Source: Micromonospora sp. Llam0
GTDB lineage: Bacteria; Actinomycetota; Actinomycetes; Mycobacteriales; Micromonosporaceae
NCBI RefSeq assembly: GCF_003751085.1
Contig: NZ_RJJY01000001.1
Location: 4,898,001 to 4,962,000, forward strand
Reading direction: 5' to 3'
Length of the DNA: 64,000 nt
A program made the position numbers and the translations under genes. The notes under the pieces were generated by a model. It did no database searches. It had not been told where the DNA came from and saw only the letters and a list, made by a program, of their open reading frames with translations. This document shows, piece by piece, positions 13,628 to 61,654 of this stretch (its first letter is position 1; every line of letters starts with the position of its first letter).

Positions 13628-13668
13628 CTGAGCGGCGCCTGTGCTGTGGTTCGCGAAGGGGACGTGGC

Positions 13669-44259: not shown

Positions 44260-45546
44260 TCAGCCGCGCAGGGCGTTCCTGACGTTGGTCAATGCGGTGT
44301 CCCAGGCTTCGTCGGGCTCGACCTGGCCCTGCTCCACGCTGGTGAGCGTGTTGAGCAGCTCGCTGCCGATGGTGGCGTCGTCGGGGCCGATGTAGAACGG
44401 CTCGATGTTCACCACGGATTCGGTGTAGATCTGGCCGATCGGCGCGTCGGAGAAGAACGGGTCGGTCTTCGCGAGCAGCTGCGGGTCGGTGTAGACCGAC
44501 GGCGTGGTCGGCAGCGCCCCGTGCTCCAGGAAGTGCGCGAGCTGGCCCTCGGGCGACTGCATCGTGGCGATGTAGTCCCAGGCCGCCGCCGGGTTCTCCG
44601 CCCGCGCCGGGATGGCGAGGTAGCTGCCGCCCCAGTTCCCGGAACCACCGGGAATGGTGGCGACGTCCCACTTGCCGGCGCTGTCCGGGGCATTGGTCTT
44701 GATCGCGTTGAGCATCCAGGACGGTGCCGACATCACCGCGAAGTCGCCCTTGCTCATGCCGGCGGTCCACCCCGGCGTCCAGGAGGCGATCCGGCCGGAG
44801 ATGCCCGCCTCGTACATCCGCAACGTCAGGTCGAACGCCTCTTTGACCTGCGGATTCTTGTCGTACGACAGCTCACGGTTCTCGTCGTAGTAGCGTTCCG
44901 AGCCCTGGTTGACCGCCTGGAAGAAGATGCTCGTCGGGGTGTTGTCCAGGAACGGCTTGCCGGTCCCCGCGACGTACTGCTTGCCAACCTCCAGGAACGC
45001 GTCCCAGGTCGGCCACAGCTCGGAGACCTCGTCCCGGTCGGTGGGCAGCCCGGCGGCGGCGAACAGGTCGGTCCGGTACGCGATCGCCATGCCGCCGACA
45101 TCCGTCGGTATTCCGATGACCCTGCCGTCCTCGGTGGTCGACTGCGAGATCACCCAGTCGAGGTAGTCACCGGTCATCTGGTCGGCGCCGAGCGTGGTCA
45201 GGTCGACGAAATTCTCCGGGGCCTGCATGAACTTCGGCATGTCGTCGCCCTGGATCAGCACCAGGTCGGGCACCTTGCCGCCGGCCAGTGCCGCCGTGAG
45301 CGCCTGGGCCGTCTCGCTGGTGTCGCCCACCTCGGTGAGCTTGACCTCGATGTCCGGTCGGTCCCTGGTGTACGCATCGACGGACGCCTGCTGGTTGATC
45401 CCGGTGAACGACCAGAACTCGAAGGTGTTCGGGTCGGACGATCCGGACCCGCCCGAACCTGGCGTACAGCCGGCGGTCAGGATCATGGCCGCCGCCGCAG
45501 CGACGGCGGTGGCGGTGGTGACGACGCGCTTCAAGCGGCCCTCCAT
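44260..45546 (-). CDS. Sugar ABC transporter substrate-binding lipoprotein
   Basis: A 428-residue binding protein of the extracellular family 1 type. ATG 45546 (MEGRLKRVV) opens a signal peptide with lipobox ILTAGC; a longer frame to 45699 passes through the promoter. The mature protein shows NTFEFWSFTGINQQ, KVPDLVLIQGDD, IGIPTDVGGMAIAYRTDLF and the late AWDYIATMQSPEGQ typical of these binders. It is the first gene of the importer operon. TTGACT and a -10-like sequence lie upstream, overlapping the palindrome ATGTTAACAT (45615-45624). Confidence 0.92.
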   Translation of the reverse strand: MEGRLKRVVTTATAVAAAAAMILTAGCTPGSGGSGSSDPNTFEFWSFTGINQQASVDAYTRDRPDIEVKLTEVGDTSETAQALTAALAGGKVPDLVLIQGDDMPKFMQAPENFVDLTTLGADQMTGDYLDWVISQSTTEDGRVIGIPTDVGGMAIAYRTDLFAAAGLPTDRDEVSELWPTWDAFLEVGKQYVAGTGKPFLDNTPTSIFFQAVNQGSERYYDENRELSYDKNPQVKEAFDLTLRMYEAGISGRIASWTPGWTAGMSKGDFAVMSAPSWMLNAIKTNAPDSAGKWDVATIPGGSGNWGGSYLAIPARAENPAAAWDYIATMQSPEGQLAHFLEHGALPTTPSVYTDPQLLAKTDPFFSDAPIGQIYTESVVNIEPFYIGPDDATIGSELLNTLTSVEQGQVEPDEAWDTALTNVRNALRG

Positions 45547-45614
45547 ACGGTGGTCGTCGACTGCCGCGGCTTCAGCGATTGTCAGGATCACCCCTACGCG
45601 CAAGACATTGACGA

Positions 45615-45624
45615 ATGTTAACAT
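45615..45624. promoter_or_regulatory. Palindrome ATGTTAACAT in sugar-ABC promoter
   Basis: A perfect 10-bp palindrome about 70 bases upstream of the binding-protein start, next to a candidate TTGACT -35 element (minus strand). It is a possible ROK or LacI operator; no regulator gene is adjacent. Confidence 0.5.
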
Positions 45625-45692
45625 CTGTGGACTGGGAGTGACGGTAGTCAATGCAATGGGTGCCGTCAACCGGATGAGGGCGCCAAAACTGG

Positions 45693-45722
45693 TTGTCACC
45701 GGATCCGGCGGGTCGGCATAGT
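45693..45722 (+). promoter_or_regulatory. Leaderless promoter of LysE-type gene
   Basis: TTGTCA (45693-45698) and CATAGT (45717-45722) are 18 bases apart, and GTG 45729 is six bases past the -10 box with no ribosome binding site, the usual leaderless geometry. Confidence 0.55.
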
Positions 45723-45728
45723 CCTGCC

Positions 45729-46373
45729 GTGACCGATGCGCTGACCTCCGGACTGCTCGCCGGCTACGGCATCGCGATCCCGGTCGGCGCGATCGGCGTC
45801 CTGATAGTCACCCTTGCCGCACAGGTGTCGCTGCGCCACGGCGCGGCGGCCGGGCTCGGCGTCGCCACCGCCGACGGGCTGTACGCGCTCGCCGCGGTCG
45901 TCGGCGGCGTGACCATCGCCAGGCTGGTCAGCCCGGCCATCGCCGTCCTGCAGGCGGCCGCCGCCGTGGTGCTCGCCGCGATCGCCGTACGCGGGATCGT
46001 CGTCGCGGTCCGGGCCCGCCGCGCGCCGGCCGACGCGACCCGGTCGGCACCGGCCGGGTCCCTGATCCGGACGTACGCCACCTTCGTCGGGCTGGCCCTG
46101 CTCAACCCGACGACGATCGTCTACTTCGCCGCGCTCGTGGTCGGCCACCAGGATGGTTCGACGGAGTCCGCCAGCGGTGCGCTGCTCGTCGGCACGGTGT
46201 TCGTCGGGGCAGCGTTTCTCGCCTCGGCCAGCTGGCAGCAGCTGCTCGCGGCCGGCGGCGCGATCGTCGGCCGCGGGCTGGCCAGCCCGCGCGGCCGGCT
46301 GATCACCGCGCTTGTCGGCAACGGCATCATCGGCCTGCTCGCCATCCGCCTCGCCTGGCAGGCAGTCAGCTGA
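45729..46373 (+). CDS. LysE/RhtB-family exporter
   Basis: A 214-residue membrane protein with six helices. The N-terminal GLLAGYGIAIPVGAIGVLIVTLA matches the proline/glycine-rich first helix of LysE exporters, and LLNPTTIVYFAALVVG is the conserved NPxxxxYF motif of the second half. Family members export amino acids or related compounds. The stop is seven bases from the opposing stop of the 393-residue gene. GTG 45729 is chosen because a -10 box lies six bases upstream. Confidence 0.88.
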   Translation: MTDALTSGLLAGYGIAIPVGAIGVLIVTLAAQVSLRHGAAAGLGVATADGLYALAAVVGGVTIARLVSPAIAVLQAAAAVVLAAIAVRGIVVAVRARRAPADATRSAPAGSLIRTYATFVGLALLNPTTIVYFAALVVGHQDGSTESASGALLVGTVFVGAAFLASASWQQLLAAGGAIVGRGLASPRGRLITALVGNGIIGLLAIRLAWQAVS

Positions 46374-46380
46374 CCGACGG

Positions 46381-47562
46381 TCAGGGCTCGACGAGATCGG
46401 TCAGAACCTGGAATGCGGTCGGATTCCTCAGGTGGAGCCGGGTGGCACGTCGGACCAGATCGCCCCGCACCGAGACCGACAACATCTCACGATGCGCGCG
46501 GACAGCTTGGTCATAGTCGGCCTGCGGCAGGTTCACCCAGAATCGCCGCAGCCGGTCCTCACCCTCGATCACGCCGGCGATACTGACCTCCCCTGAGCCG
46601 GTCTCCTCACGGTGCAGGCGAACGACGTTGCCGACGATGAGGACACCCTCCTCGGGGATCCGCTCCCGAAGCCCTTGGGCAGCGGCGACGAGAACTGGCA
46701 GGTGGTCGTGGCGGAACCTGATCGGTGGCAGCTGCCGGGTCCGCAGCGGCCGCCCCGGCGCCAGCCGCAATGCCAGCTCGAAGGGGTGGCCGGATTCGCC
46801 CCCGAGCCCAGCGAGGGCCTCACACAGGTTCGCGCTGACTCCGTCACGCACAGCGGTGGTGAAAGCGTCCAGCCCTGCCGGGCCGACGAGAGCCTCGTTC
46901 GCAGCGTCGTACGCGGCGCGGACCGCGTCGTAGATCTTCAGCGAGACCTGCCGCTCGAACGGTTCCGCCGGCTCCATCGCCTGAGGTAGGTCCTCGTCGA
47001 ACAGCGAGGCTTGACCGGATGCGAGACGGGGCGGGACGGGGGTGAAGACCGAGAGCACGAAGCTTCCCTCCGAGCCGGGGCCAAAGCGGACCTCCCGGAG
47101 AAACTTGAGCACCTCGGCTGGCTTGCGGGCAGGCTGCACCGCTCGTGCTTGATCTGGCCTGACCGAGTACGCCGCTGCGGCAACCACGTTGCGTAGGCTC
47201 TCGAAGGCTTGAACACCGTCGTCAAGACCAATAGTTCCGGGCACATTGCCTGCCGGGAAGGCCCGAACGGTGTGCACATCCATGGAGACGTTGGAGATGT
47301 CAGCAAGGATGTCGAGCTGCGACCGGCCCTCCACGACGGCGAGCACCTGAAGGATGTCTCGTACGCGAGCCGGGTAGTCACGTAGCGTCGACTCCAGCGG
47401 CTGCAGCGCTTCAAACTCAGCGCCATCTACGACCTTGATCCACTGGGCGCTGGTTCCCGACTTGCTCTGCCTGGTCCAGTCCTGCGAGCGGAGGTACATC
47501 GCGAGCTCCAACGGTGACCGCGCGGCCAGCGCGGCGTGATCGGTGACCTCTGCCTGGATCAT
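46381..47562 (-). CDS. Uncharacterised 393-residue protein
   Basis: An orphan protein I do not recognise. ATG 47562 has GGAGG five bases upstream. It has no signal peptide or membrane helix. An N-terminal helical part (residues ~1-120) includes HAALAARSPLELAMYLRSQDW, the middle is alpha/beta (SEGSFVLSVFTPVPP), a helical KIYDAVRAAYDAANEAL lies near 220, and the C-terminal ~100 residues look like beta strands of an OB- or SH3-like domain (GVLIVGNVVRLHREETGSGEVSIAGVI). Codon bias supports a real gene. It stands at the left border of the accessory region and has no partner on its strand within 230 bases. Confidence 0.72.
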   Translation of the reverse strand: MIQAEVTDHAALAARSPLELAMYLRSQDWTRQSKSGTSAQWIKVVDGAEFEALQPLESTLRDYPARVRDILQVLAVVEGRSQLDILADISNVSMDVHTVRAFPAGNVPGTIGLDDGVQAFESLRNVVAAAAYSVRPDQARAVQPARKPAEVLKFLREVRFGPGSEGSFVLSVFTPVPPRLASGQASLFDEDLPQAMEPAEPFERQVSLKIYDAVRAAYDAANEALVGPAGLDAFTTAVRDGVSANLCEALAGLGGESGHPFELALRLAPGRPLRTRQLPPIRFRHDHLPVLVAAAQGLRERIPEEGVLIVGNVVRLHREETGSGEVSIAGVIEGEDRLRRFWVNLPQADYDQAVRAHREMLSVSVRGDLVRRATRLHLRNPTAFQVLTDLVEP

Positions 47563-47707
47563 TTGGCCTCCCCGACACCCGCTCAAAGAAACTCGCTGCA
47601 CCCGCAGTCACCGTCTTCGGTCTTCACCGAGCAGGTGCGGGTGATGATCGAGACATCGTGCACGCATGCGGTACGGCGGGCTGCAGTACCTGGGAAATCA
47701 CATGCGG

Positions 47708-47764
47708 CGATGTGAGGCTGAGATACCGAATGATTGCGGCGTAGGGTATCTCAGCCTCACATCG
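47708..47764. repeat. Perfect 20-bp inverted repeat, hairpin
   Basis: Arms 47708-47727 and 47745-47764 are perfectly complementary over 20 bp around a 17-base loop. It lies 30 bases past the stop of the 736-residue gene and 145 bases before the 393-residue gene, both minus strand. It is probably a strong terminator; lack of a T-tract leaves a regulatory or mobile-element role open. Confidence 0.75.
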
Positions 47765-47793
47765 ACGCGGGCTGCTGCCGGCGGTGTGGATCG

Positions 47794-50004
47794 TCAGTTG
47801 GAGGGCGGGTGCAGGCGCAGGGCGACGACGGCGGCGGGCAGGTCAGCGGCGGTGGCGACCCGCCGGGTGGTCTCGGGACCTTCGCGTACGTGCACCTCGC
47901 AGCGGGACGCGGCGAGCGAGACGATCACCGTCTCGCCGGCGTAGTACCCCGCGAGCAACGACAGCAACGGCACCAGGTTGGCAGGCGCCGCCCAGTCGCC
48001 GGGGTCGCCGTCGGCTGCCGGCGTCGGCACATCCTGCGGTACGGATTGCGGCACGTTCTGCGGTACGGCGATCGCGGTCGACGGATCGGCCGGCACCGCC
48101 GAGCGGGTGGCGCCGCACACGTACTCGACGGCTTGGGCAAGCGCGTGCCCGAGGGTGGGCCGGTGCGGGTAGGCCCGCAGGCCGATCGCGGTGCCGGGCG
48201 CGGCGAGGTACGCGCCCCACGACACCCCCTGCATGCGGTACGGCGTACCGGCGTTGTTGCGATGGTCGGCGACGGTGACGATCAGGGCCAGCCCCAGCCC
48301 GTACGCCAACGCGAGCACCCGCGCCAGCGGTGGCGCGTCCGGCTCGGCGGCGTGCAGCAGCACCCGGCCGCCGGGGTGCCCGTTGGCGACGTTCGCCAGG
48401 TACGCGGTCAGCGGGTCCTGCCCAGGGTGGTCGAGGGTGACATAGCCGTACCAAAGTTCCTGCACCAGCAGGATCTCGTACTCGTCGAGCGGCGCGAGCT
48501 GGTCCGGGCCGATCGGCTGGCCGCGTACCGTCAGGTCGCCGAGGTGGAACGGGAGCCGGAACTGCTGCGGCACCTGGTGGATGGGTTTGCCGCCCGGCTG
48601 GCTGCCGATCCGCGGCACCACGGCGGTGGCTTCGTCGGGAAGTGCCCAGTTGAGGTGGCGGGCCCAGTGCTGTCCGTCGGTGACGGTGACGACGGCACCG
48701 TGCCGGATGCGCAGCGTGTCGCCGCAGCTGAAGCAGCGGCTGAGGCCGGCGGCGTACCGGCCGCTGCGCCCGGCACCGCCGCAGTAGCGGCACTCCGGGT
48801 CGGCGGCGGGCGCGCCGACGGTGCAGACGCAGCGGCGCAACCCCTGCTCCGGTACGCAGTACGGGCAGGGGTCGGACGGGATCGCCGGCCCCTGCCAGCT
48901 GGGCGGCGGCGGTTGCCACGCTCGGGCGAGCTTGTCGACCGTACGCCGGGAGATCTGTCCGGTGGTGCGTTCGGTGAGTTCCTCGACGACGGCGACCACC
49001 CGCAGGCTGGTGTGCCACCAGCGGCCGTCGCGCCAGATGGCCTGGGCGCCGGGGGTGGCCTCGCCGGTGCCGAGTGAGGTGCAGTCGGCGATCATGCGGC
49101 GTTCGAGCTGGTCCAGGTCGAGTTTCGGCGGCCCGATCGGCGGGCCGGGTCGGCCGGGGCGCAGGTAGTGGGCGGGTACGTCGACACCACGGTCGCCGAT
49201 CCCGGTGGCGAGGCGGGTGGCGTCAGCGGCGACGATCGCCGCGTCGAGGCTGTCGTAGCTGCCGACGCCGCTGGCGAACGCGTCGCCGACTCCGGTGTCG
49301 GGCAGTTCGAGGCGCAGCTGCCAGCCGTAGCGGTCGTCGCCGTACGGATCGGGCCGGGTTTCGACGACCAGGTCGAGGCAGAGCAGTTCGGCGAGGGCGC
49401 AGAGTTGGCCGAGGTGACGGGCCGGGTCGGGGCGGTCCGGCGGGGCAGTGCGGCCGAGCCAGAGCTGCCACGGGTGGTACGTGTAGTTGGCGATCGCCGC
49501 CGCTTCCAGGGCGTGCCGCCGTGCCTGCGGCAGGTCGGGTCGCCAGTCGCGGGGCAGCACCAGCCCGCCGACGAGAAGATTCCGCTCGGGGGTGTCCGGG
49601 TCGTACAGGTGGTCGGCGCCGACCCAGCCGGCCAGTTCGGTGACGACGGCGTCGAGGTCGAGCCACCAGCGGCCGGCGCGGTGCACCGGGTCGAGCGCGC
49701 CGGGCACGATGTTGACGGAGGCGACGGCGGCGGTGTCGGCGTTGGCGACGGTGTAGACGAGCTGGGCGCGGCGGCGGCCGAGCCCGGCGCAGCGGTCGCA
49801 GGTCGCGCAGTTCGTGCCGGTGCCGAGACAGATTTGACAGTCGCGGTACGCCGTACCGCCCGGGTTGCCGGCGGTCAACTGGTCGTCGTCGACGATGAGC
49901 TGGTCGCCGTACCAGGTGCAGCTGCACCGGTGGGAGGTGACGCCACCGCCGTCGCAGGTGGTGCAGTCGACGACGGTGACGCCGGGGTTGTCGGGCTCGG
50001 TCAC
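47794..50004 (-). CDS. Cysteine-rich 736-residue protein, zinc-knuckle-like
   Basis: A 736-residue protein of unknown family. GTG 50004 overlaps the DivIVA-like stop (GTGA). The N-terminus has two cysteine clusters, CTTCDGGGVTSHRCSC and CQICLGTGTNCATCDRC, resembling DnaJ-type CxxCxGxG zinc knuckles. A second group lies near residue 410-475: CPYCVPEQGLRRCVC, CRYCGGAG and CFSCGD. Between them are mixed alpha/beta regions; the C-terminal 260 residues have none. Zinc binding is likely. A long frame extending to 50778 contains no start of comparable quality. The gene ends an operon of three and is followed by the 20-bp hairpin. Possible roles include nucleic-acid binding or protein assembly; function unknown. 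Confidence 0.8.
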   Translation of the reverse strand: MTEPDNPGVTVVDCTTCDGGGVTSHRCSCTWYGDQLIVDDDQLTAGNPGGTAYRDCQICLGTGTNCATCDRCAGLGRRRAQLVYTVANADTAAVASVNIVPGALDPVHRAGRWWLDLDAVVTELAGWVGADHLYDPDTPERNLLVGGLVLPRDWRPDLPQARRHALEAAAIANYTYHPWQLWLGRTAPPDRPDPARHLGQLCALAELLCLDLVVETRPDPYGDDRYGWQLRLELPDTGVGDAFASGVGSYDSLDAAIVAADATRLATGIGDRGVDVPAHYLRPGRPGPPIGPPKLDLDQLERRMIADCTSLGTGEATPGAQAIWRDGRWWHTSLRVVAVVEELTERTTGQISRRTVDKLARAWQPPPPSWQGPAIPSDPCPYCVPEQGLRRCVCTVGAPAADPECRYCGGAGRSGRYAAGLSRCFSCGDTLRIRHGAVVTVTDGQHWARHLNWALPDEATAVVPRIGSQPGGKPIHQVPQQFRLPFHLGDLTVRGQPIGPDQLAPLDEYEILLVQELWYGYVTLDHPGQDPLTAYLANVANGHPGGRVLLHAAEPDAPPLARVLALAYGLGLALIVTVADHRNNAGTPYRMQGVSWGAYLAAPGTAIGLRAYPHRPTLGHALAQAVEYVCGATRSAVPADPSTAIAVPQNVPQSVPQDVPTPAADGDPGDWAAPANLVPLLSLLAGYYAGETVIVSLAASRCEVHVREGPETTRRVATAADLPAAVVALRLHPPSN

Positions 50005-52409: not shown

Positions 52410-53023
52410 TCCACCGGCACGCCGAACGCCAGCACGTGCAGCAGTCCGACGATCGATCCGGAACCCAGGATCTCGTTCCGGTCGAGTAGCTGCCGAATGC
52501 TGGTAAGTGGCACCCACGCAACCTCGCCGGCTTCGTCGGACACGGCTGGCCGGCCGACGAACGTCGCCTCCCTGGCGTAGTAGACGTCGTGCGGCGAGTC
52601 GACCATGCCAACCATCGGCTGGTACGAGAACAGACGCCGCATCCCGTACGGGCGCCAGCCGGTTTCCTCTTCGACCTCCCGCGCCACGGCTACTGCCGGG
52701 CTCTCGCCGTCGTCGACGATCCCGCCGGGAAGCTCCCACCCCCACTGGTCCGACACGAACCGGTGTCGCCACAGCATTAGCACCTGGTCCCGATCGTCGA
52801 TGACGACACCGATGGCGGCACGAAACAGCCGTACGACGTGGTGCTCGAACCGCTCGCCACCGGGAGGCTGGACGTCGACCAGGTCGAGACTGACCCACGG
52901 CCGCCGCTCGTACACTGTCCGCTTCCCGAACACGTGCCAGCGATGAGCATCGGCTTGCTCAGGGCCAGGCCCGTCGTCGAGCCGGCCCCGCAGCCGTTCG
53001 TCTCCGCCCGTCGCGTCACCCAT
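52406..53023 (-). CDS. NUDIX hydrolase
   Basis: A 205-residue NUDIX hydrolase. The NUDIX box reads GGIVDDGESPAVAVAREVEEETGW, close to GX5EX7REUXEEXGU with all catalytic glutamates. An N-terminal extension of ~65 residues (YERRPWVSLDLVDVQPPGGERFEHHVVRL) resembles the ADP-ribose/nucleotide-sugar pyrophosphatase group. ATG 53023 is 10 bases after a small upstream reading frame. Substrate unknown. The stop overlaps the stop of the XRE-TPR gene. Confidence 0.92.
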   Translation of the reverse strand: MGDATGGDERLRGRLDDGPGPEQADAHRWHVFGKRTVYERRPWVSLDLVDVQPPGGERFEHHVVRLFRAAIGVVIDDRDQVLMLWRHRFVSDQWGWELPGGIVDDGESPAVAVAREVEEETGWRPYGMRRLFSYQPMVGMVDSPHDVYYAREATFVGRPAVSDEAGEVAWVPLTSIRQLLDRNEILGSGSIVGLLHVLAFGVPVD

Positions 53024-53033
53024 GCAGGCCAGA

Positions 53034-53189
53034 CTATCGACGCAGCCGTTCGTACCAGCCCTGCACCCAATCCGCAGACAAGGGCCGCGAATCCCCGCCA
53101 CCGAACTCCTCGGCCTCGCCGCCTGACGCAGGCACCTGGAGCTGCCCAGCCGCTCCGGCGGCGACCCAGGCAACCACCTGGGCTGTCAC
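53034..53189 (-). CDS. Small 51-residue reading frame before NUDIX
   Basis: GTG 53189 to the stop at 53034 reads MTAQVVAWVAAGAAGQLQVP.. and ends ..ADWVQGWYERLRR. The end looks like real protein and the gene stops 10 bases before the NUDIX start, but there is no clear ribosome site, and part (53097-53144) is a repeat also found at 54107-54154. It could be the preserved 3' end of an older gene. Confidence 0.35.
   Translation of the reverse strand: MTAQVVAWVAAGAAGQLQVPASGGEAEEFGGGDSRPLSADWVQGWYERLRR
53097..53144. repeat. 48-bp imperfect repeat, copy 1
   Basis: Matches 54107-54154 in 42 of 48 positions, same orientation, about 1 kb apart. Both copies adjoin gene fragments on the minus strand and frame the MazEF-like module. 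Confidence 0.7.
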
Positions 53190-53281
53190 CGGCCGCTCAG
53201 GTCGCCGGGCGCTGGCATGCCGTCGTACGCGATCACGGTCGCTCGGTGACCACTCGCCGTGCTTGAGCCATAGTGGACGTT

Positions 53282-53551
53282 ATGGCTACTACGACGATGC
53301 AGCTCGACAGCGGTCTCCGAGACGAACTGGCGGAGATCGCCAGACGCGACTTCGCAGGCGTTCCCCTTGCCGAGGCGCTTCGGCGGCTCATCAGGGAACA
53401 CCAGGTCAACAAGATCATGACGCGGTACGCCGAGCTACAGTCCGACCAGCAAGAATGGGCCAGGTACCGGGCCGAGACGTCGTTGACCGACAACACCGCC
53501 GGTGACGGCATGCCACCCAGGCGCGACGAGTACCCGGAGTACAACGAGTGA
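53282..53551 (+). CDS. Antitoxin-like protein of MazEF-type module
   Basis: An 89-residue protein. ATG 53282 gives MATTTMQLDSGLRDELAEIARRDFAGVPLAEALRRLI, a ribbon-helix-helix-like N-terminus followed by a polar, Glu/Asp-rich C-terminus typical of antitoxins that wrap a MazF-type toxin. A GTGA overlap couples it to the downstream frameshifted toxin. No clear ribosome site precedes it. In its normal form the pair would be an mRNA-cleaving toxin and its repressor-antitoxin. Confidence 0.78.
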   Translation: MATTTMQLDSGLRDELAEIARRDFAGVPLAEALRRLIREHQVNKIMTRYAELQSDQQEWARYRAETSLTDNTAGDGMPPRRDEYPEYNE

Positions 53552-53906
53552 GCCACGCCAAACTCGCACCGTGGCAGGTGTGGCTGGTGGACTTCGGTAA
53601 CCCGGTCGGGCACGAAGAGGGTGGCGTACGTCCGGCCGTCATCGTCGGCTCCACCACCCACTGCCGGTTCCCATCGGTATGGCAATCGTGGTGCCGCTGA
53701 CCACGCGGGACCGCGGCTTGGACCACCATGTGCGGATCGACTCCCCCGAGTCCGGGCTGACCCGCCCCAGCTGGGCGCGCACCGAGGACATAACGGCGGT
53801 TTCCACGCAACGGTTCCGCCGCACACAGCCCCTGGGAACCGCCTCAGCCAGCGAAGTCGCGCGGCTGTCCGAATGGCTTCGGGAAATGGTCGCCTTCACG
53901 CCCTGA
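53548..53906 (+). pseudogene. MazF-like toxin, frameshifted
   Basis: Starting with GTG at 53548, the first frame reads PWQVWLVDFGNPVGHEEGG..RPAVIVGSTTHCRF, the MazF/PemK N-terminus, then runs to a premature stop near 53700. The rest continues in another frame: GMAIVVPLTTRDRGLDHHVRI..SWARTEDITAVSTQRF to the stop at 53906. One extra base in the C-run at 53670-53672 would restore a complete protein of about 119 residues. It may be an inactivated toxin or a sequencing error. Confidence 0.8.
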
Positions 53907-53968
53907 CTGCGACACAGCAGCAACATCATACGTAGCAGATGAGAGCGACATAGAGCGTAGCGGCACTC

Positions 53969-54110
53969 TCAGGGCCGCCCCGCAGGGACGATCAGGTGTA
54001 CGCGCACGATGTCGTCGATGCCCGATCTTCTCTTTCTTGCGCACCGAGTCCCGCAGCGGTAGGACGTAGCCGACGTCCTTGGGGAACAACGAGGTTCACC
54101 ACCCGCGCCA
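53969..54110 (-). pseudogene. DUF1905-like remnant with two frameshifts
   Basis: Reading the minus strand in three successive frames gives RVVNLVVP, then KDVGYVLPLRDSVRKKEKIG, then IDDIVRVHLIVPAGRP and a stop at 53969. Joined, this matches the C-terminal part of DUF1905 proteins (LFPKdGgYvLPvK..VR...gl..gD.V.V.L). The frame changes are at the G-run 54081-54084 and the C-run 54021-54023. The N-terminal half is absent. Either decay or indel errors are possible. Confidence 0.6.
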
Positions 54111-54154
54111 CCGAGCTCCTCGGCCTCGCCGCCTGAGGAAAGCGCCTGAAGCTG
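54107..54154. repeat. 48-bp imperfect repeat, copy 2
   Basis: The partner of 53097-53144 (42 of 48 positions identical). It lies directly upstream, in minus-strand terms, of the DUF1905 remnant. Confidence 0.7.
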
Positions 54155-54238
54155 TACCAGCGGGCCTCGCCTACAGCCAGACCCGTTGTGGCGAGCGCTC
54201 GCCGGTTGGGTGCCACGGCAGGTAGGGCCTGGCGTCAC

Positions 54239-55024
54239 TCAGTCGAACCTGGCGCGCCCTTCACCGCCTGCCGCGCTGCCGGACTTGGAGTCATCGTCCC
54301 CTTCGGGGTTGCCGCGTTGATCCGAAGCGATCTCCCATGTCTTGTTGTCCACGAGCCGGGTTATGGCGTACTGGGAAACTCCGAAAACGACACTCCACGC
54401 GAGGATCTGTGCTCCCGTGTCAAGCTGGGTGAGACCTGGAACGAATTCACCGCGGATGAAGGTAACTCCCACGAAGGCAGAGAGAGCGCCGGCGGGCAGC
54501 TTCAGCGCAGCCGAAGCAAGGCGCAGGTCGTACGGCACCGCCGACCTGTGCAGCCTGGCCAGAGCAGGGATCCCGGACAACACTGCCCCGATGAACCCGA
54601 ACACCAGGACCAGCGTCACGTCGACCCGATCGGGCTCGGCTTGCCGGTCCCTGTCCTCGGCAGTGGGCTGCATGCCCTGGTCCTTTGTCAGCGGATCATG
54701 CGGACACACCAGAGTGCCGGGGTCCGTCCCAAAACATAGACTCAGCACGTCGGGAGACTCGTATCCCCAGATACCGAGACAGAGAACCAATGCCAGGGTG
54801 AGCATCGTCACGGAAATCAAGATGTTCCGCACGCCGCGCACCCGAGAATACCAACTATTTATCGCGGTGCAGCTTCCGACCAAGGCAGCCATCATGGCAT
54901 AGCGAAGTTCACTCACCTCGGCACATTTTGCCTTACCTGTGAAGACCTGACGCCAACCGCCCGCCGCCCTGCGCTCACGGCTCCCGATGCCGTCTCGTCC
55001 GCACAGCTCACGGATCTTTACCAA
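54239..55024 (-). CDS. C-terminal membrane half of a split protein
   Basis: A reading frame of up to 261 codons. GTG 54916 (MSELRYAMMAALVGSC) is the best start if it is a separate gene; the frame is open from TTG 55024. It has membrane helices at ILISVTMLTLALVLCLGIWG, VTLVLVFGFIGAVLSGIPAL, LKLPAGALSAFVGVTFI and ILAWSVVFGVSQYAITRLV, with a cysteine-containing loop (LCFGTDPGTLVCPHD). I recall actinobacterial proteins of about 380 residues in which this part follows directly on the sequence encoded by 55032-55421, so the two probably are one gene broken by a frameshift near 55030. Function of that family is unknown. Confidence 0.6.
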   Translation of the reverse strand: MVKIRELCGRDGIGSRERRAAGGWRQVFTGKAKCAEVSELRYAMMAALVGSCTAINSWYSRVRGVRNILISVTMLTLALVLCLGIWGYESPDVLSLCFGTDPGTLVCPHDPLTKDQGMQPTAEDRDRQAEPDRVDVTLVLVFGFIGAVLSGIPALARLHRSAVPYDLRLASAALKLPAGALSAFVGVTFIRGEFVPGLTQLDTGAQILAWSVVFGVSQYAITRLVDNKTWEIASDQRGNPEGDDDSKSGSAAGGEGRARFD

Positions 55025-55031
55025 TCTGCAG

Positions 55032-55421
55032 TCATTCTCGTGGGAGCTTCTTGGCCAACTCCAGCACGGATGACGACCAGCCCTTCAGCCTCTCCTCATC
55101 GGCAACCTTGAGCAGCACGAGCTCAGCCGCATGAATGTGCGACCAGGTCCGCTCAAGTGACCCCCTGAACGGCCAGACGTTCCTTGCAGCTTGGCGCGCA
55201 AGGGCGACATCGGCGCTGACAAACTGACAGGCTTCCCGCAAACGAGGATCATCTTTTTCTGAATAGAGGAGCCGACTTTGATGCTCAAGGTAAAGAGCTC
55301 GGGCGAGCGCATGCTGCCGCCAAGCTCCCCCGAAACTCCACGCACTCCAGGCAGCCCCTGCCTCCGATGCCGTGCCGGCACCGGAATCACTGCCCTTCCT
55401 GCTTCGCTCCTTCTCCCCCAT
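55032..55421 (-). CDS. N-terminal soluble half of a split membrane protein
   Basis: A 129-residue reading frame. AWRQHALARALYLEHQSRLLYSEKDDPRLREACQFVSADVALARQAARNVWPFRGSLERTWSHIHAAELVLL is helical and well formed. It ends at a stop eight bases before the next frame opens. In related proteins this segment continues into a transmembrane region like that at 54239-54916; here the join is interrupted by a probable one-base loss. No ribosome site stands out before ATG 55421. Confidence 0.6.
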   Translation of the reverse strand: MGEKERSRKGSDSGAGTASEAGAAWSAWSFGGAWRQHALARALYLEHQSRLLYSEKDDPRLREACQFVSADVALARQAARNVWPFRGSLERTWSHIHAAELVLLKVADEERLKGWSSSVLELAKKLPRE

Positions 55422-55559
55422 ACCCGAACCATAGGCATCGCCTACCTACCCAGGATCACTTCTACCTGAAGATGTGATCGCAGAGCAGGCTGGTGCAGTA
55501 GTTGTGACCGTGGCGTCGGATCTGGCGAGTTCTCGCCTTCGTGTGCTGCACTGGCCGGC

Positions 55560-56201
55560 ATGAGACATCGCTCGGCCTGGATGCTCAGCTCGCTCGTTCT
55601 GGTGCTCGCTCTGGCAGGCGGCTTCGCCGGGTGGCGGTGGTGGCACCATCGGTCGCCGTACGAGCCGGAGGTGTTGAAGGCGACCGCGACGCTGCGGCTG
55701 GTCGACCAGGCAACTGCGGACGCCGCCTTCGACGGTCAACAGCTGGTAGTTCCCTCCGACGGCGCCCAGGTCTTCCTCGGCCAGGTCAGGTGGACGCCGC
55801 CACCGCAGGCGAAACCCGGCGCGATGCTGATCATCGCGGTGCTCGACAAACGGACCCGCACCCTGCCCGGGTTCATCTCCACCACGTCGAATCGACCGGA
55901 CCGGGTCGGATCAGGCTCGGACGGCGTCCTCAACGCCGTTGAACAGCGCTACCCCTGGCTGCAGGGCATCGGTGACCGCGAGGTCAACGGTGGCTTCTAC
56001 TCCTCCGGCGACGTCGTCATCGTCGCGTCGGTCGACGCCACCCCCGTCACGTACTCCTTCGTCCTACACCCGGCACATCCGGAGACACCACCGGGGTTCG
56101 CGATCGCGTCCGCTCCCGCCGCCGTCGACGACCTGATGGTCGCCCTGATCAGCGTCGGCCCCGACCGGCAGATCTACTGGGCCGAGCGGCTACTGAACTG
56201 A
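55560..56201 (+). CDS. Membrane-anchored or secreted hypothetical protein
   Basis: A 213-residue protein with an N-terminal hydrophobic segment (WMLSSLVLVLALAGGFAGW) that is a signal anchor, then a beta-rich external domain (LKATATLRLVDQATADAAFDGQQLVVPSDGAQVFLGQVRWTPPP, GFYSSGDVVIVASVDATPVTYSFVLHP). No catalytic motif or family is recognised. It is separated by 126 bases from the DUF6244-like cluster and is transcribed in the same direction, so co-function is possible but not shown. Confidence 0.7.
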   Translation: MRHRSAWMLSSLVLVLALAGGFAGWRWWHHRSPYEPEVLKATATLRLVDQATADAAFDGQQLVVPSDGAQVFLGQVRWTPPPQAKPGAMLIIAVLDKRTRTLPGFISTTSNRPDRVGSGSDGVLNAVEQRYPWLQGIGDREVNGGFYSSGDVVIVASVDATPVTYSFVLHPAHPETPPGFAIASAPAAVDDLMVALISVGPDRQIYWAERLLN

Positions 56202-56326
56202 CCAGCCGCCCGAAGTGCCATCACCTTCCGTAGCCTGACGTTGACGCACTCCGATAGGCTCCGACCATGTAGGAGAGTGACCGCCGTAGCCGGGCTCGTC
56301 GCAGGACCGACGTCGGGGAGGAACTG

Positions 56327-56590
56327 GTGGCCAGCATCCAGGAAGTCAAGGCCGGTCTCGCCCAAGCCGCAGAGCACGGCAACACGAGCCGGCAGCAGCT
56401 CATGGCGGCGGTGAGGACCCTGGACAACATGCTCAGCCAGCTCCACGCTGTTTCGGCCGGCACCGGGCACCACTTGGTGAGCGAGGCGATCGGCCGCTGC
56501 GAGCAGGCCAAGCGGCAGTTGGAGGAGTCCGCCGGCCTCATCCACCAAGCGGGCGAGTCGACCCGCCGGTACGCCGGTATCCTCGGGTAG
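56327..56590 (+). CDS. DUF6244-like helical protein 1
   Basis: An 87-residue all-helical protein (MASIQEVKAGLAQAAEHGNT). GTG 56327 follows GGGGAGGA. The sequence has a hairpin-like pattern of two long amphipathic helices resembling DUF6244 and, more distantly, WXG100 (EsxA-type) proteins, but without a WXG motif. It is the first of four tightly packed genes; the second begins six bases after its stop. A role as an exported or scaffold partner of a larger protein is inferred from context. Confidence 0.75.
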   Translation: MASIQEVKAGLAQAAEHGNTSRQQLMAAVRTLDNMLSQLHAVSAGTGHHLVSEAIGRCEQAKRQLEESAGLIHQAGESTRRYAGILG

Positions 56591-56595
56591 CGGCG

Positions 56596-56856
56596 ATGAG
56601 CGTCGACGAGGTCAAGAGCCGGCTACGCGAGGGGACCGAGGCGTTGCGGTCGGCAGCTGACACCATCCATTCGGTACGGGAGACCGTCCGGTCCTGTCAT
56701 GTCGCCGCCGTAGCGGTCCTCACTGACAGCCAGCACCCGCACGTCACCGCCGCGCTCAGCCGGCTACGCAGCGCCGACGACGAGAACGAGCTGGTGCTCC
56801 GCCGAATCGACGGCGGCGCAGACAGCGCCGAGGAGTACGCGAAGGCTCTCGGGTGA
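56596..56856 (+). CDS. DUF6244-like helical protein 2
   Basis: An 86-residue helical protein (MSVDEVKSRLREGTEALRSAADTIHSV) with the same two-helix layout as its neighbour and a closing EEYAKALG like the neighbour's TRRYAGILG, so the two are paralogues. Its stop overlaps the next start (GTGA), indicating translational coupling. Unknown function. Confidence 0.75.
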   Translation: MSVDEVKSRLREGTEALRSAADTIHSVRETVRSCHVAAVAVLTDSQHPHVTAALSRLRSADDENELVLRRIDGGADSAEEYAKALG

Positions 56857-57497
56857 GCAGCGGCAGCGTCGGCGACGTCATTGCGGTGCTGCGGCAGATC
56901 CTCGACGACCTCGATAGCGCGGCAGTCGCGGCAACGACCGCACAGAAGTCGGCCGCGGCCGGTACGCGGCACTACCAGACCGCGACCGAGGGCGCTGACA
57001 GCTCTCACGCCACCGCAGCGCGCACGCAGGCCAGCGAGGCCGCTGCGAAGTCCGGCAAGATCGCCCGGCTCATCGCCGAAGCAGCAGCCGAGATCTCCCA
57101 CTACGCCAACCACATCGCCCCCGGCTCCGTCCCGACCCGTACCTCCGCCACCGGAGGCATGCCGTCTGGCGAGGCGTTGGCCAAACCTGGCCACAAGAAG
57201 GGTTCCCTGGCGGCCAAGGCACTCGGCCGCGTCGGCCAGGTGCGCAGCTCGGACGACGGGTTGCAGCACTTCGGCAAGTTGGGGGGCATTCTCCAGGACG
57301 CTGCAAAGGGCTCCGGCGGGACAGCGGTCAGCAAGACGCCGAATTTTTCTTTCCAGCCGACCCACCAGCCGAGTGCGTCCGCTGGTGATGCGCTGCTCGC
57401 CGCGCTGGCGGTGGCCGTCGTCGGGGCGAAGGGCGTAGAGCTGATGTCTCGTATGCGCAGGCGGACAAGAAACGACGACACCAAGGAAAAAGGATAG
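56853..57497 (+). CDS. Helical protein with C-terminal TM segment
   Basis: A 214-residue protein. The N-terminal ~90 residues are helical like the two preceding proteins (SVGDVIAVLRQILDDLDSAAVAATTAQKS). A Gly/Ser/Lys-rich middle follows, then a hydrophobic segment (ALLAALAVAVVGAKGVELM) and a basic tail RMRRRTRNDDTKEKG. This could be a membrane-anchored or secreted effector whose N-terminal part is the shared helical module. It is followed after three bases by a 148-residue acidic protein. Confidence 0.72.
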   Translation: MSSGSVGDVIAVLRQILDDLDSAAVAATTAQKSAAAGTRHYQTATEGADSSHATAARTQASEAAAKSGKIARLIAEAAAEISHYANHIAPGSVPTRTSATGGMPSGEALAKPGHKKGSLAAKALGRVGQVRSSDDGLQHFGKLGGILQDAAKGSGGTAVSKTPNFSFQPTHQPSASAGDALLAALAVAVVGAKGVELMSRMRRRTRNDDTKEKG

Positions 57498-57500
57498 AAA

Positions 57501-57947
57501 ATGGAAGAGGAAACCAAGTTCCTTCGCGCCCTGCTTCGTCAGGACTGGGAAACCTACGACTCGTTCACCGAAAAGTTCCAGAGCGAGGGCAAGGGCACGC
57601 CTGTTGCCATCATCGGTTACAGCTTCTTCGTCGCCGTTCAGCGACGATTCGCCGAGAACAAAGATGCCCGCGAGATTATCCGATTCGTAGCGGATGCGCG
57701 AGCCCGACTGCTAGAAGGACGAGAGCTTCCCGCCAAGGAGGGTGAAGCCCTGATCTGCGCCATGCTGGACATGGACATTCCCGGCGTCGAGGAGATCGTC
57801 GAAAACCTCGACGTCGGAGTGATGGCCGAGATTCAGGGGCAGCTCCTGTTCCGGCTGGTCGAGGATGCGGAGCTGACGGACGAGCAACTGGACGAACTTC
57901 TCCTCGAAGCCGAGGCGCTACTCCACGAGAACCACCCTGTCGAGTAG
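57501..57947 (+). CDS. Acidic helical protein, possible immunity partner
   Basis: A 148-residue acidic protein (MEEETKFLRALLRQDWETYDSF.. and C-terminal ..ELTDEQLDELLLEAEALLHENHPVE), made mainly of helices without a signal peptide. Its acidic charge, cytoplasmic nature and position immediately after a helical, possibly exported protein resemble immunity proteins of polymorphic toxins. That role is inferred from context only. The base composition begins to fall here. Confidence 0.7.
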   Translation: MEEETKFLRALLRQDWETYDSFTEKFQSEGKGTPVAIIGYSFFVAVQRRFAENKDAREIIRFVADARARLLEGRELPAKEGEALICAMLDMDIPGVEEIVENLDVGVMAEIQGQLLFRLVEDAELTDEQLDELLLEAEALLHENHPVE

Positions 57948-57996
57948 CCATCGAACGGATGCTACAGTAGCCACATACGAGAACCCATCTATAACG

Positions 57997-58614
57997 TCAA
58001 TGCCGAAAGGTTGCAGCGATCTCGTCATTGTCAAGCGACTCCAGAACCCGGTTCCACATCTTTAGGTTTTCATGCGCCCAGTACCCGTACTCCACTTCTG
58101 CACTCTTGGAGTAAAAATAGATACCTTTTTCCATGAGCGGACCCTGTTCGTGCACAATTTTGTGAGCCAAATCGCGTAGAGACACTCCGGTTTCATTAAG
58201 GAAGCTAACCGTCATCAGTGGAGTGGTTGGAAGGACTTTGAAGGCCGTGTCACCATCACTCAGCGCCTGAGCCTCCAATGAAATCCCCGAATGTCGGCGG
58301 CTGGTTCTGGCTTCAGCAATTATAACTTCGACCTTATCTGCAAGAACTTCATCAAGTTCAGCCTTCTTGATCATTTTGGAACGTAAGTTGCGAGCCGCAC
58401 TCTCGTCGCCATTGTTGGATGTGAGATAGTTGAAATCATGTAGCAGCGCGGCGGCAGTCACCAAGGATATGTTTGCCTTCAGTTCGACCGCGTATTCCGC
58501 CGCCTTACTGGCAACAAATCTGACATGATTCCAGCCGTGGTACGGAACATCCTTATCGCTCGCTTGATAAAGGTCGCGAACGATAACTCGAAGGTTTGTC
58601 AATTTTTGAAGCAT
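57997..58614 (-). CDS. HD-domain phosphohydrolase-like protein
   Basis: A 205-residue protein, last gene of a low-GC operon. The HD motif is seen as H26 and H30 in YHGWNH and H59-D60 in AALLHDFNYL, with the later acidic residues expected of metal-dependent phosphohydrolases. HD enzymes hydrolyse nucleotides or cyclic dinucleotides. AGGA is a few bases before ATG 58614. Codon use has many A/T-ending codons, unlike the surrounding genes. It is 30 bases downstream of the cupin-like gene, so co-transcription is likely. Confidence 0.8.
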   Translation of the reverse strand: MLQKLTNLRVIVRDLYQASDKDVPYHGWNHVRFVASKAAEYAVELKANISLVTAAALLHDFNYLTSNNGDESAARNLRSKMIKKAELDEVLADKVEVIIAEARTSRRHSGISLEAQALSDGDTAFKVLPTTPLMTVSFLNETGVSLRDLAHKIVHEQGPLMEKGIYFYSKSAEVEYGYWAHENLKMWNRVLESLDNDEIAATFRH

Positions 58615-58643
58615 CGGATCCTGTCTCCGTAACCAGAAGTCAT

Positions 58644-59285
58644 CTAACCAAGGAGAGAATTAAGCAAGCCCAGATCTTGACTTGCCTTGCGCTGGTTCAC
58701 AGTGACTGCGCCCGTGGACATCGGCGCGATCAGTCTAGACGACGGATCGTCAACCGACTCGGTCGCTACGAGCGTTACCGACCATCTGTCACGAAGACCA
58801 GTAGTGACGTGATAGCTCCAAGAGGGGATTAGATATGGAGACGTACTGGCTGTCCGCAGTTCCCTGCCGGTCAAATGCGCCTCAACACTCCCTTGCATCA
58901 ACTGAAGCCGGCTCACCATTGATTTGTAGTCCGTCACTACTGAGTATAACCCGAAACGCTGGCCATTGCTTGCAGCAACACGAAATGAACACTCCTCGAC
59001 TTCTCCACACATCACCGCACTCCAAATGCGCCACCCATGTGCATGCACCTGCTGATTTAAGGTCTTGTTCTGCCGAAGGCGGTAATTTTGAATTTCATGC
59101 GGAGGCCACATGTGAATTCGGATATTCCACCCGGGAAGGATATTGTTGATAATTCGAATCGCCGTGAATCCGTACGGATGTTCATAGCTGTCGACTCGCT
59201 CGCCTTTGACGATCGATGCCACGGTTCCTGGCGACTGCACTGAAAGCCACTTTACAACGCCCGAATCTCCTACCCGATTAGTCAT
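58644..59285 (-). CDS. Cupin-like protein
   Basis: A 213-residue protein with a cupin-like pattern: HAHGWRIWSAVMCGEVEECSFRV (H81 and H83) and YLIPSWSYHVTTGLRDRWSVTLV (H159) suggest three histidines holding a metal, as in cysteine-dioxygenase-like cupins. The N-terminal ~45 residues are not recognisable. Its ATG overlaps the stop of the 2TM gene by eight bases (59278-59285), so translation is coupled. Low GC like its neighbours. An enzyme or a small-molecule-binding sensor are both possible. Confidence 0.7.
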   Translation of the reverse strand: MTNRVGDSGVVKWLSVQSPGTVASIVKGERVDSYEHPYGFTAIRIINNILPGWNIRIHMWPPHEIQNYRLRQNKTLNQQVHAHGWRIWSAVMCGEVEECSFRVAASNGQRFGLYSVVTDYKSMVSRLQLMQGSVEAHLTGRELRTASTSPYLIPSWSYHVTTGLRDRWSVTLVATESVDDPSSRLIAPMSTGAVTVNQRKASQDLGLLNSLLG

Positions 59286-60258
59286 AGTCTGTTCTCCTTC
59301 CCAAGGTTCGAACTATTTCGAGCAGGTCCTCGTCGGGGGTTTGATTAATTTGCAACTTTTCGAAGAATGATCGAAGCTCCGCCAGGTCTTCAGTGGTTAG
59401 TAAGTTTGGGTCAGAAGGAATGTCGCGATTGATCACAGGACGAACCTTCCGAGCAACCGCCCAACTCGCATCAAAGTCGTCGCAGTAGGACCTATAAAAC
59501 GACGATGAGTTCCGAAAGATGAGTGCATCCTCACCCTTGTTCTGACCGGTTACAAGTGCCGCGATGTCCGATAGGTCCAAGCTCATAACCCATACGTATG
59601 GGGCTAACCCAAAAGTGACTTCAACACGTGGCGCCTTTCGTACTTGTAGTGCCGCACGAAGAAGTGATGCCATGACCTCAAACCTAGCCCGACGAACCGA
59701 CCAAGCGCCCACGCGCGACTTAGTATTGCTCATCGAATGAGAGTAGGCCGCCAGCAAGTCAGTCCTGTCAGGATCAATGACTAAGATACGAACGCTCACG
59801 GCACGTCCGTTACTCAAAGCCGAGTTGGCTATCTCTCGTAAAGTAATGGTGGTGAAGTAGTTGGCGCTCCGTGAGCGCACAGCCCAATTTCGTGTAGGTC
59901 GCGTTTGTTCAGCCAAGGCGCCTGCGATGTCAACGCTTCTTACCACCTCGTGTGGCACCTCATTCTCGAGTGGGTACAAGTAGACATAGGCGCCACCAAC
60001 AATTAGCGAGGTGAGAGTAGCGGCCAGCATGTTGTCGGCGATATTGGCAGAGCTCTGCCAGATTCCCGCATTTGCCCGATTGCCACCTAGAATTGTGAGT
60101 CGAGCAAGCGCAAGTGCGATAAATCCCAGAGCAAGGGTAATGAAATACCATCGACGAAGTACGGCCGATCTCGAGAACCCCACCCGAGCCCCTCCCCCGG
60201 CGCTGCCGACTGCTATTCGGTTGAGCATTCGCCGCGCCTGGTCCCAGAACTTGAACAC
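59278..60258 (-). CDS. 2TM protein with PLD-like cytoplasmic domain
   Basis: A 326-residue protein. Two membrane helices lie at ~37-57 (WYFITLALGFIALALARLTIL) and ~75-95 (NMLAATLTSLIVGGAYVYLY), leaving a large cytoplasmic part. From ~140 it reads TTITLREIANSAL, VSVRILVIDPDRTDLLAAYSHSM, VEVTFGLAPYVWVMSLDLSDIAAL and FYRSYCDDFDASWAVARKV, a pattern I associate with PLD-fold signalling domains (DUF5919-like) that lack the HKD catalytic motif. GTG 60258 is the start used; the ribosome site is weak. It heads the low-GC operon, behind a 16-bp palindrome. The layout recalls membrane effectors of nucleotide-signal defence systems. Confidence 0.75.
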   Translation of the reverse strand: MFKFWDQARRMLNRIAVGSAGGGARVGFSRSAVLRRWYFITLALGFIALALARLTILGGNRANAGIWQSSANIADNMLAATLTSLIVGGAYVYLYPLENEVPHEVVRSVDIAGALAEQTRPTRNWAVRSRSANYFTTITLREIANSALSNGRAVSVRILVIDPDRTDLLAAYSHSMSNTKSRVGAWSVRRARFEVMASLLRAALQVRKAPRVEVTFGLAPYVWVMSLDLSDIAALVTGQNKGEDALIFRNSSSFYRSYCDDFDASWAVARKVRPVINRDIPSDPNLLTTEDLAELRSFFEKLQINQTPDEDLLEIVRTLGRRTDYD

Positions 60259-60305
60259 TTGGCGGAAGCGAGTTCATCCCCCACCCCAAGCGGGTGTACA
60301 ACTCT

Positions 60306-60321
60306 ATCGGGTATACCCGAT
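60306..60321. promoter_or_regulatory. 16-bp palindrome upstream of low-GC operon
   Basis: ATCGGGTATACCCGAT is a perfect 16-bp palindrome, about 50 bases upstream of the 2TM gene start, in an AT-richer stretch with several TATA-like -10 candidates. It is probably an operator of the operon. Confidence 0.65.
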
Positions 60322-60490
60322 GTGTATATAGATTGTCGGGAAGCCGACACGCAAGACCTTTCTCGGCGGACACCAATCCGCCGACCTAAACCTTGGTGGT
60401 GCGGTCGTTTGTCGCCGATGGCGCCGGTCTCATACTGCTCGCTAGTTATGTCCGCAACGCCGAGAAAGCACCTAATACACCCTGATTTGA

Positions 60491-61654
60491 TCAGGGTAGC
60501 ATTTGCCCGCTGCGGTGCAATTCGCTGAGGGTCATCAGCTCTTTGTCCACGATGGCGCGGCCAGCGGCGTCGATCTCTCCGACGTACGTTACGCCGTCCA
60601 CGTTGGCCACCGCACGAACGTGTTCCAGCTTCACGTATTCGTTGTCCAGCAACTCAGAACTCTGGCTGGTGACGATCACCTGGGTGCGCTGCGCGGCGTC
60701 GTCCAACGCCTCGTACATCGCCCCCACCCCGGCCGGGTGCAACGCGGTCTCCGGCTCCTCGATGCCGATCAACGGGATCCGTCCGGCGAACGCCGCCGGC
60801 TGGAACAACGCCGTCAGCACCCCGGCTGCGAGCAGCGTCCCCTCGGACAGCGACTCCCGCAGGAACACCTCCTCGCCGTCACCGGCCGCCCCGGCCCGGA
60901 AGCGAACCTGCACCGTCGAGTAGCGCCCCTCGACCCGCTCGTCGACCCCGAGCGCGTTCGGCACCAGCGCCCCGAGGTAACTGTCCAGCCGTTCCTTACC
61001 GACTGGGTCCTCCCGACCCAGCTCACCCAGCACCGAACCGAGGAAGTGGCCGGTCCTGCCGAGCTGCCCACCGGGCGCCAGCTGTTTGTCCAAGGCCCGC
61101 AACGCGGTCGAGTCCAGTTCGTAGAAGGCCATCGCCCGGAGCCGAGTCTCCAGCACCCCTTGCGGATCGCCCTCGCGAATCACCGACGCCGGCAGCCGCA
61201 ACCGCATGGTGCGGTCCGTCCCCGGGTCCAGCGGCAACCGCAGCTCGCCGTCCGCAAGCCTGATCGTCGCTGCCTCACCCCGCACGAGCAGGGGCAGCTC
61301 ACCCAACGGGTCCTGCGCGACCTCGAAGCCGTACGTCGCCGGGATCGGCGCCTGCCCGGCCTGCCGGGGCGGCAACGCCAGGTCGAGCCGGATCTCGAAC
61401 GACTCCATGGCGCCGCCCGGTCCCCGGTGCAGCAGCGCGCCGAGCCCGCCCCGGTCGGCCACCGCCTGCGGCACCGAGCCGGTCAATGCATCCGCCACGA
61501 AGCGCAGTACGTCGAGGAAGTTCGACTTCCCGGAAGCGTTGAACCCCAGCAGTACGGTCAGCGGCCCGAGCGCCACCTCACAGCCGGCGATCGACCGGAA
61601 GCCCCGCACCCGTACCCGACGGACGAACGGCACTGTCAGGTCAGGCCCGTTCAT
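60491..61654 (-). CDS. AAA family ATPase (RecF/OLD-like)
   Basis: A 387-residue ATPase of the AAA_21 group. ATG 61654 has GGAGGGGG six bases upstream. VRVRGFRSIAGCEVALGPLTVLLGFNASGKSNFLDVLRFV contains the Walker A motif (GFNASGKSN). RESLSEGTLLAAGVLTALF is a signature-like segment, and IPLIGIEEPETALHP is Walker B; VTSQSSELLD follows as the His/Ser switch region. No TOPRIM nuclease domain is attached, so it is not a full OLD protein. It has high GC and sits next to the low-GC operon in the same orientation, but 230 bases separate them. Similar ATPases occur in defence islands. Confidence 0.88.
   Translation of the reverse strand: MNGPDLTVPFVRRVRVRGFRSIAGCEVALGPLTVLLGFNASGKSNFLDVLRFVADALTGSVPQAVADRGGLGALLHRGPGGAMESFEIRLDLALPPRQAGQAPIPATYGFEVAQDPLGELPLLVRGEAATIRLADGELRLPLDPGTDRTMRLRLPASVIREGDPQGVLETRLRAMAFYELDSTALRALDKQLAPGGQLGRTGHFLGSVLGELGREDPVGKERLDSYLGALVPNALGVDERVEGRYSTVQVRFRAGAAGDGEEVFLRESLSEGTLLAAGVLTALFQPAAFAGRIPLIGIEEPETALHPAGVGAMYEALDDAAQRTQVIVTSQSSELLDNEYVKLEHVRAVANVDGVTYVGEIDAAGRAIVDKELMTLSELHRSGQMLP

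Follow-up and report, generated by a model that had tools for sequence, protein, structure and literature searches.

Background

The described systems closest to the locus presented here are the NLR-like (NACHT) conflict systems of bacteria that use TIR effectors, the CBASS and SLATT-type systems of nucleotide signalling, and HEC-01, a PADLOC candidate system consisting of an AAA ATPase and a DUF4276 protein. At the level of single proteins the nucleases and lipases of the PLD superfamily can be added, as well as the TrmB-family regulators, which have a PLD-like sugar-binding domain, a DNA-binding part and no known HKD motif. The operon studied here lies in a 64-kb stretch of the Micromonospora sp. 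Llam0 genome (the window, i.e. the whole stretch of DNA that was analysed) and encodes three proteins, namely a 2TM protein carrying a PLD-fold domain, a cupin and an HD-domain protein. Many of its relatives with an IMPase gene are found near TIR-NA-iREase-WD40 genes, as in the NLR-like systems, but the window is without a TIR homologue and PADLOC gave no match for the 2TM-cupin-phosphohydrolase part. With CBASS and SLATT-type signalling it has in common a 2TM membrane protein and small-molecule enzymes, which is a kinship of kind only; the 2TM protein of the cassette differs by its PLD-fold domain and the lack of a PADLOC match. That protein shares its fold with the PLD superfamily enzymes, but its family lacks their HKD motif, and it differs from the TrmB-family regulators by its membrane anchor. 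Finally, the second gene of HEC-01 sits at the place of the operon in one congener (G004), but unlike HEC-01 the operon proteins give no HEC-01 match in PADLOC.

PADLOC found nothing in the operon proteins, nor in three IMPase-type and three HD-type relatives, and a CD-NTase as in CBASS was matched neither by Pfam among eight proteins of the operon and its surroundings nor by PADLOC among the three proteins of the operon. For a Thoeris-type TIR protein beside an effector, no homologue of the relatives' TIR domain was present in the window (phmmer, 1e-5), and gene 1 gave no SLATT or S-2TM match in Pfam or PADLOC, which may not hold every SLATT family. In PMC7159879, 2TM SLATT proteins are mentioned beside TIR and other nucleotide-related effectors, and full-text searches, with this paper and PMC3710099 among those consulted, showed no description of the module, which may still be found in papers outside the collection searched. 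The 2TM-cupin-phosphohydrolase module is thus apparently undescribed.

Results and discussion

A low-GC operon of three genes

The three genes of the operon (Table 1) have an overlap of 8 nt between genes 1 and 2 and a gap of 29 nt between genes 2 and 3, and translation of gene 1 could alternatively begin at the ATG of codon 11. The GC content of the operon (57997-60258) is 0.519 versus 0.704 for the window, and the window minimum over stretches of 2262 bp (0.514) is found at the operon, the lowest value outside it being 0.630. GC3 of the operon genes is 0.53-0.56 versus 0.88 for the adjoining AAA ATPase gene. The preliminary description of a minus-strand, low-GC operon of three genes with overlapping or nearly touching ends is therefore borne out by coordinates, GC and GC3. 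Other stretches of lower GC content (approximately 0.61-0.71), milder than the operon, are located at 12001-16500, 42500-48000 and 53000-57000 of the window.

Table 1. Positions in the window of the operon genes, the possible operator and the neighbouring ATPase gene
Feature	Position	Strand	Remarks
Gene 1, 2TM protein with PLD-fold domain (approximately residues 100-276), HKD motif absent	59278-60258	-	326 aa, start GTG
Gene 2, cupin	58644-59285	-	213 aa
Gene 3, HD-domain phosphohydrolase-like protein (predicted)	57997-58614	-	205 aa
Perfect 16-bp palindrome, possible operator	60306-60321	.	47 bp upstream of the gene 1 GTG
AAA ATPase, HEC-01A type; neighbour outside the cassette	60494-61654	-	PADLOC HEC-01A, 6.4e-116

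The palindrome upstream of the operon, previously read as an operator, is indeed exact. It occurs a single time in the genome, where one further site differs from it by 2 mismatches. Since the 64 kb contain eight perfect palindromes of at least 16 bp, one of them inside gene 1 (60045-60060), the operator role is plausible only, and the palindrome may be there by chance. Repeat scans and promoter and terminator scans gave nothing useful.

The operon at the site of a HEC-01B-like gene of congeners

Horizontal acquisition, which had been proposed from the base composition, is supported by the distribution of the genes. Among 101 relatives, the own genome being counted, 2 had the cupin gene, which none of the six congeners possessed, and the search with the gene 1 protein (P0001) likewise found it absent from all six. 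The AAA ATPase gene is 92-93% identical in three of the congeners (G002, G004 and G006), and in G004 the interval matching window positions 57914-60494 measures approximately 690 bp and holds a different gene. This gene immediately follows that of the ATPase and encodes a DUF4276 protein, which is HEC-01B according to PADLOC (1.7e-74; L154 9246-9833). There is a similar reading at this place in G006, and in G002 the reading there is broken by a frame change. With a HEC-01B-like gene at its place in a congener, the operon occupies the site of the partner gene of a defence candidate. The ATPase gene has the same orientation as the operon, as first reported; it was said to follow the operon, which is true in coordinates, but with respect to transcription it lies ahead of the operon. 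As a component of the system it was rejected, because congeners carry the ATPase gene without the operon. The HEC-01A-type ATPase gene of the window has no adjoining HEC-01B (DUF4276) gene, unlike that of G004.

Folds and conserved residues of the three proteins

The proteins of genes 1 and 2 had no match in Pfam, NCBIfam or PADLOC, and when the PDB was searched by sequence, neither the 2TM nor the cupin family had a significant relative there. The AlphaFold model of gene 1 (45 sequences) has a mean pLDDT of 82.6, with the membrane part poorly modelled (48-76), and both the model and its fold matches assign a PLD fold to the C-terminal part, in agreement with the 2TM protein with a PLD-like domain that had been proposed. 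The fold matches include SauUSI, NucT, phosphatidylserine synthase and the TrmB sugar-binding domain (2f5t), and a BFVD search gave general PLD matches. The catalytic motif HxKx4D/E was found in none of 95 family entries, some of which are repeated. The PLD-fold domain has lost the HKD motif and probably serves in ligand binding and signalling to the membrane, the role of ligand binder being proposed by analogy with the matched TrmB domain, which binds sugars according to the title of 2f5t.

For gene 2 the model (35 sequences, mean pLDDT 81.3) and the fold matches, of which the leading cupin matches are tied, indicate a cupin barrel. Invariant in the family are HP-x-GF, H58, H81-x-H83 and H159, with the putative metal ligands H81, H83 and H159 kept in 35/35 aligned rows, while H105, H107 and H161 are present in 7/7 aligned cupins of the HD type. 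The model, the fold matches and the conserved histidines uphold the cupin-like identity first given to this protein, which had a weak PHROG match (0.024). Gene 3 likewise is of the HD type as described, with a Pfam HD match above the cut-off (9.7e-6, 26.3 bits, cut-off 22) and the metal residues H26, H30, H59-D60, D120 and D122, as well as E114, in all 8 rows (P0003, the gene 3 protein, and 7 of its 11 relatives). Its nearest solved relatives 3djb, 2pq7 and 3b57 (0.0012-0.023) are named without a specific function, and gene 3 is an HD-domain phosphohydrolase-like protein by predicted activity only.

A 2TM-cupin core with HD, IMPase, NUDIX or no third partner

Judged from sequence comparisons, the locus is one form of a 2TM-cupin core which carries a predicted HD, IMPase or NUDIX protein, i.e. 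one of three unrelated phosphohydrolases, or none. A scan of genome_contigs with the cupin alignment gave 181 relatives, and the best 80 loci (L035-L114), from actinomycetes, were kept as ranked by similarity to the IMPase-type cupin, so that the IMPase type is over-represented among them. Of these best 80 of 181, 77 have a 2TM homologue, in 76 cases adjoining the cupin by coordinates and in L095 approximately 2 kb from it; an IMPase gene is present in 75 and a CitMHS/ArsB-like permease gene in 67, and none has an HD gene. The 2TM and cupin proteins of the window matched the IMPase-type pair of G066 at 4e-15 and 2e-9. Counting named genera, the pair is found in 12 among the best 80 of 181 loci, plus plasmids of Methylobacterium and Rhodococcus. 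The preliminary description had considered a common system unlikely if homologues occurred separately; the homologues have a common neighbourhood across genomes, and two families without a Pfam or PADLOC match thereby become a recurring genetic unit. The cupin is without a 2TM homologue in L081, L099 and L107, where cupin, permease and TIR genes are present. In two of these loci (L081 5583-5873, L107 5563-5871) a small gene is oriented divergently to the cupin gene and encodes approximately 100 aa, of which the first are hydrophobic. In Planotetraspora a divergent 2TM homologue adjoins the permease gene (L095 8703-9710; L098 9420-10421, a second one in L098).

The HD protein was found in 12 of 150 genomes in a P0003 search of the order (own genome included). 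The 11 others, from other families of the order, have HD proteins 42-46% identical to P0003, and all 11 have the gene order 2TM-like, cupin, HD. Profiles of 7 of these 11 matched first-group profiles widened by L170, plasmid and other members with E 4e-8 (95%) for the 2TM protein and E 1.7e-5 (78%) for the cupin, as against 0.1-0.17 in reversed and crossed control comparisons. Earlier comparisons of HD-type with IMPase-type profiles had given weak scores, with E values of 0.0035 and 2.5e-4 at probabilities of 9% and 43%, as had those with the window proteins alone (0.17-0.18); single window proteins compared with profiles of the 7 HD-type members gave 0.19 for P0001 and 0.0085 for P0002, the gene 2 protein. 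The earlier family profiles gave weak matches in 8 of the 11 HD-type loci and found neither gene of L134, L137 and L138. By the widened profiles, homology of the HD-type and IMPase-type 2TM and cupin families is supported, the link being remote. One HD-type member (L132) has one clear hydrophobic segment, not two, and the HD-type loci are at repeated chromosomal places, unlike typical defence islands.

A P0001 family search was positive in 16 of 200 genomes (own included), with the closest protein in G1044 (35% identical). At this one locus (L170) a NUDIX domain (1.1e-11) is fused to a cupin 34% identical to P0002, and there was no HD or IMPase match within 13 kb. The plasmids of Methylobacterium and Rhodococcus have the bare 2TM-cupin pair with overlapping genes, then a recombinase gene. 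The plasmid collection gave a third match, in a Nonomuraea record of 11.9 Mb, and this one belongs to the IMPase type. Beside the pair on the Methylobacterium plasmid (L019 1-6458) there are CHAT-domain, metallophosphoesterase, Dam methyltransferase and other genes, with the look of a defence cluster.

Linkage to TIR and NLR-like genes

A TIR gene was first spotted via scripted gene calls in 20 chosen loci, and TIR genes were then counted by phmmer in all 80 (1e-5). Among the best 80 of 181 loci, 66 encode a TIR protein (58 of the 67 that are at least 12 kb long), with TIR genes in 62/64 loci outside Micromonospora versus 4/16 within. The 14 loci without TIR are 12 of the 16 from Micromonospora, L051 from Plantactinospora, and L095. 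In separate retrievals, TIR was present in 4 of 13 IMPase-type loci, mostly of the Micromonospora family (L018, L021-L032), and in 2 of the 11 from Micromonospora itself (L027 and L030 of L022-L032), the strains being partly those of the 80 loci. With the relatives' TIR domain as phmmer query (1e-5), no homologue was found in 14 control loci of 10-18 kb, of which 11 are of the HD type and 3 come from congeners, in two plasmid loci or in the window. On these homology counts the IMPase form is linked to predicted TIR genes outside Micromonospora; the link is not essential, as TIR is lacking in the window and in all 11 HD-type and both plasmid loci.

Full reading of the L157 and L171 TIR genes gave TIR_2, NA-iREase3 and WD40 matches, and the metallophosphoesterase-like, NTPase (NACHT) and pentapeptide parts and the P-loop come from reading of the sequence; NACHT was not among the best 25 listed of 64, 63 and 54 families in the NLR-like proteins of relatives. 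In L171 the TIR gene is divergent and adjoins the 2TM gene. At one locus (L174 5884-12094) the 2TM PLD-fold gene is directly followed by a same-strand gene for a NACHT-like WD40 protein without TIR, and neither a cupin nor an IMPase was matched within 13 kb, so that by its domain reading the 2TM protein looks as if it replaced the TIR part. TIR genes (e.g. L036 8928-12650; L157 1495-7302) are often beside a convergent CitMHS/ArsB-like permease gene.

Possible function and alternative explanations

We give an even chance to the operon being a horizontally acquired, apparently undescribed modular cassette for stress signalling or defence, of which the function is the part we infer from sequences and models. 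In such a cassette the membrane-anchored 2TM protein would bind a ligand through its PLD-fold domain and pass the signal to the membrane, where its membrane part would transmit or execute it. The cupin is a predicted three-His metal cupin and the third part an exchangeable phosphohydrolase (HD here, IMPase or NUDIX elsewhere), and together they might make, change or remove a phosphorylated small molecule, perhaps nucleotide- or NAD-derived, that is sensed by the membrane protein. That three phosphohydrolases without homology to one another fill the same role hints at a small phosphorylated molecule as the key, and this could be their common substrate. The guess of an NAD-derived signal comes from the chemistry of TIR domains, which are able to produce such signals, and of NUDIX enzymes, which act on ADP-ribose-like molecules by cleavage; the TIR-less copy of the window by itself gives it no support. 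The earlier idea of nucleotide signalling and defence is thus suggested, and not beyond that, by the phosphohydrolase swaps, the TIR genes near many IMPase-type relatives and the HEC-01B-like position. More specifically, the operon could, tentatively, belong to a new immune-signalling module, in which a membrane receptor or effector with a dead PLD domain would sense a phosphorylated metabolite derived from NAD or a nucleotide, which the cupin would shape and the HD, IMPase or NUDIX enzyme would switch off. In many actinomycetes this module would be wired to a TIR-NACHT-WD40 receptor, and it might replace the TIR effector (L174). NLR-like genes are often found close by, which would tie the cassette to bacterial immunity.

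The same components could also be read as a metabolic or metabolite-repair cassette, in which the cupin would act as sugar (phosphate) isomerase or thiol dioxygenase, the phosphohydrolase as sugar or inositol phosphatase and the 2TM protein as TrmB-like, membrane-bound nutrient sensor, with the CitMHS/ArsB permease of related loci moving the product. We regard this as rather unlikely, as it leaves the TIR linkage (66/80, best 80 of 181 loci), the cupin-less 2TM-NACHT pair of L174 and the bare plasmid pair unexplained, and the tied cupin fold matches give no substrate. On plasmids the pair is a unit of two overlapping genes with recombinase genes after it, and this and the 8-nt overlap in the window would suit a toxin-antitoxin-like pair, with the 2TM protein as membrane toxin, the product of the overlapping cupin gene as antidote and the phosphohydrolase as accessory. 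This is improbable, given the three histidines kept in 35/35 cupin rows, and the cupin also occurs without a 2TM homologue (L081, L099, L107) and the 2TM protein without a cupin (L174). That a low-GC fragment simply carries three unrelated genes in chance linkage might be read from the few relatives in single-sequence searches, but this is contradicted by the same order and partners in independent genomes, and we find it hardly credible.

Distribution in further sequence collections

None of 18 pattern matches to P0002 in genome_contigs was confirmed. Neither plasmids nor phages contained P0002; P0001 was absent from phages and present in one plasmid record, plasmids gave no match to P0003 or to the HD-type cupin, and no match was confirmed in viral_contigs with A4, A6 and A5. 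The genome samples of order, class, phylum and family were drawn from larger groups, with the own genome included and the best candidates scored. Under this scheme the L170 2TM protein was found in 11 of 200 and A2 in 13 of 298 genomes of the order, P0003 in 2 of 345 genomes of the class, and P0004 and A4 in 2/396 and 2/296 genomes of the phylum, where the match in the second genome (G381) extends over only approximately 50 residues. In one further locus (L185 in G626, family f15), a short frame close to the contig start matches the 2TM protein in part.
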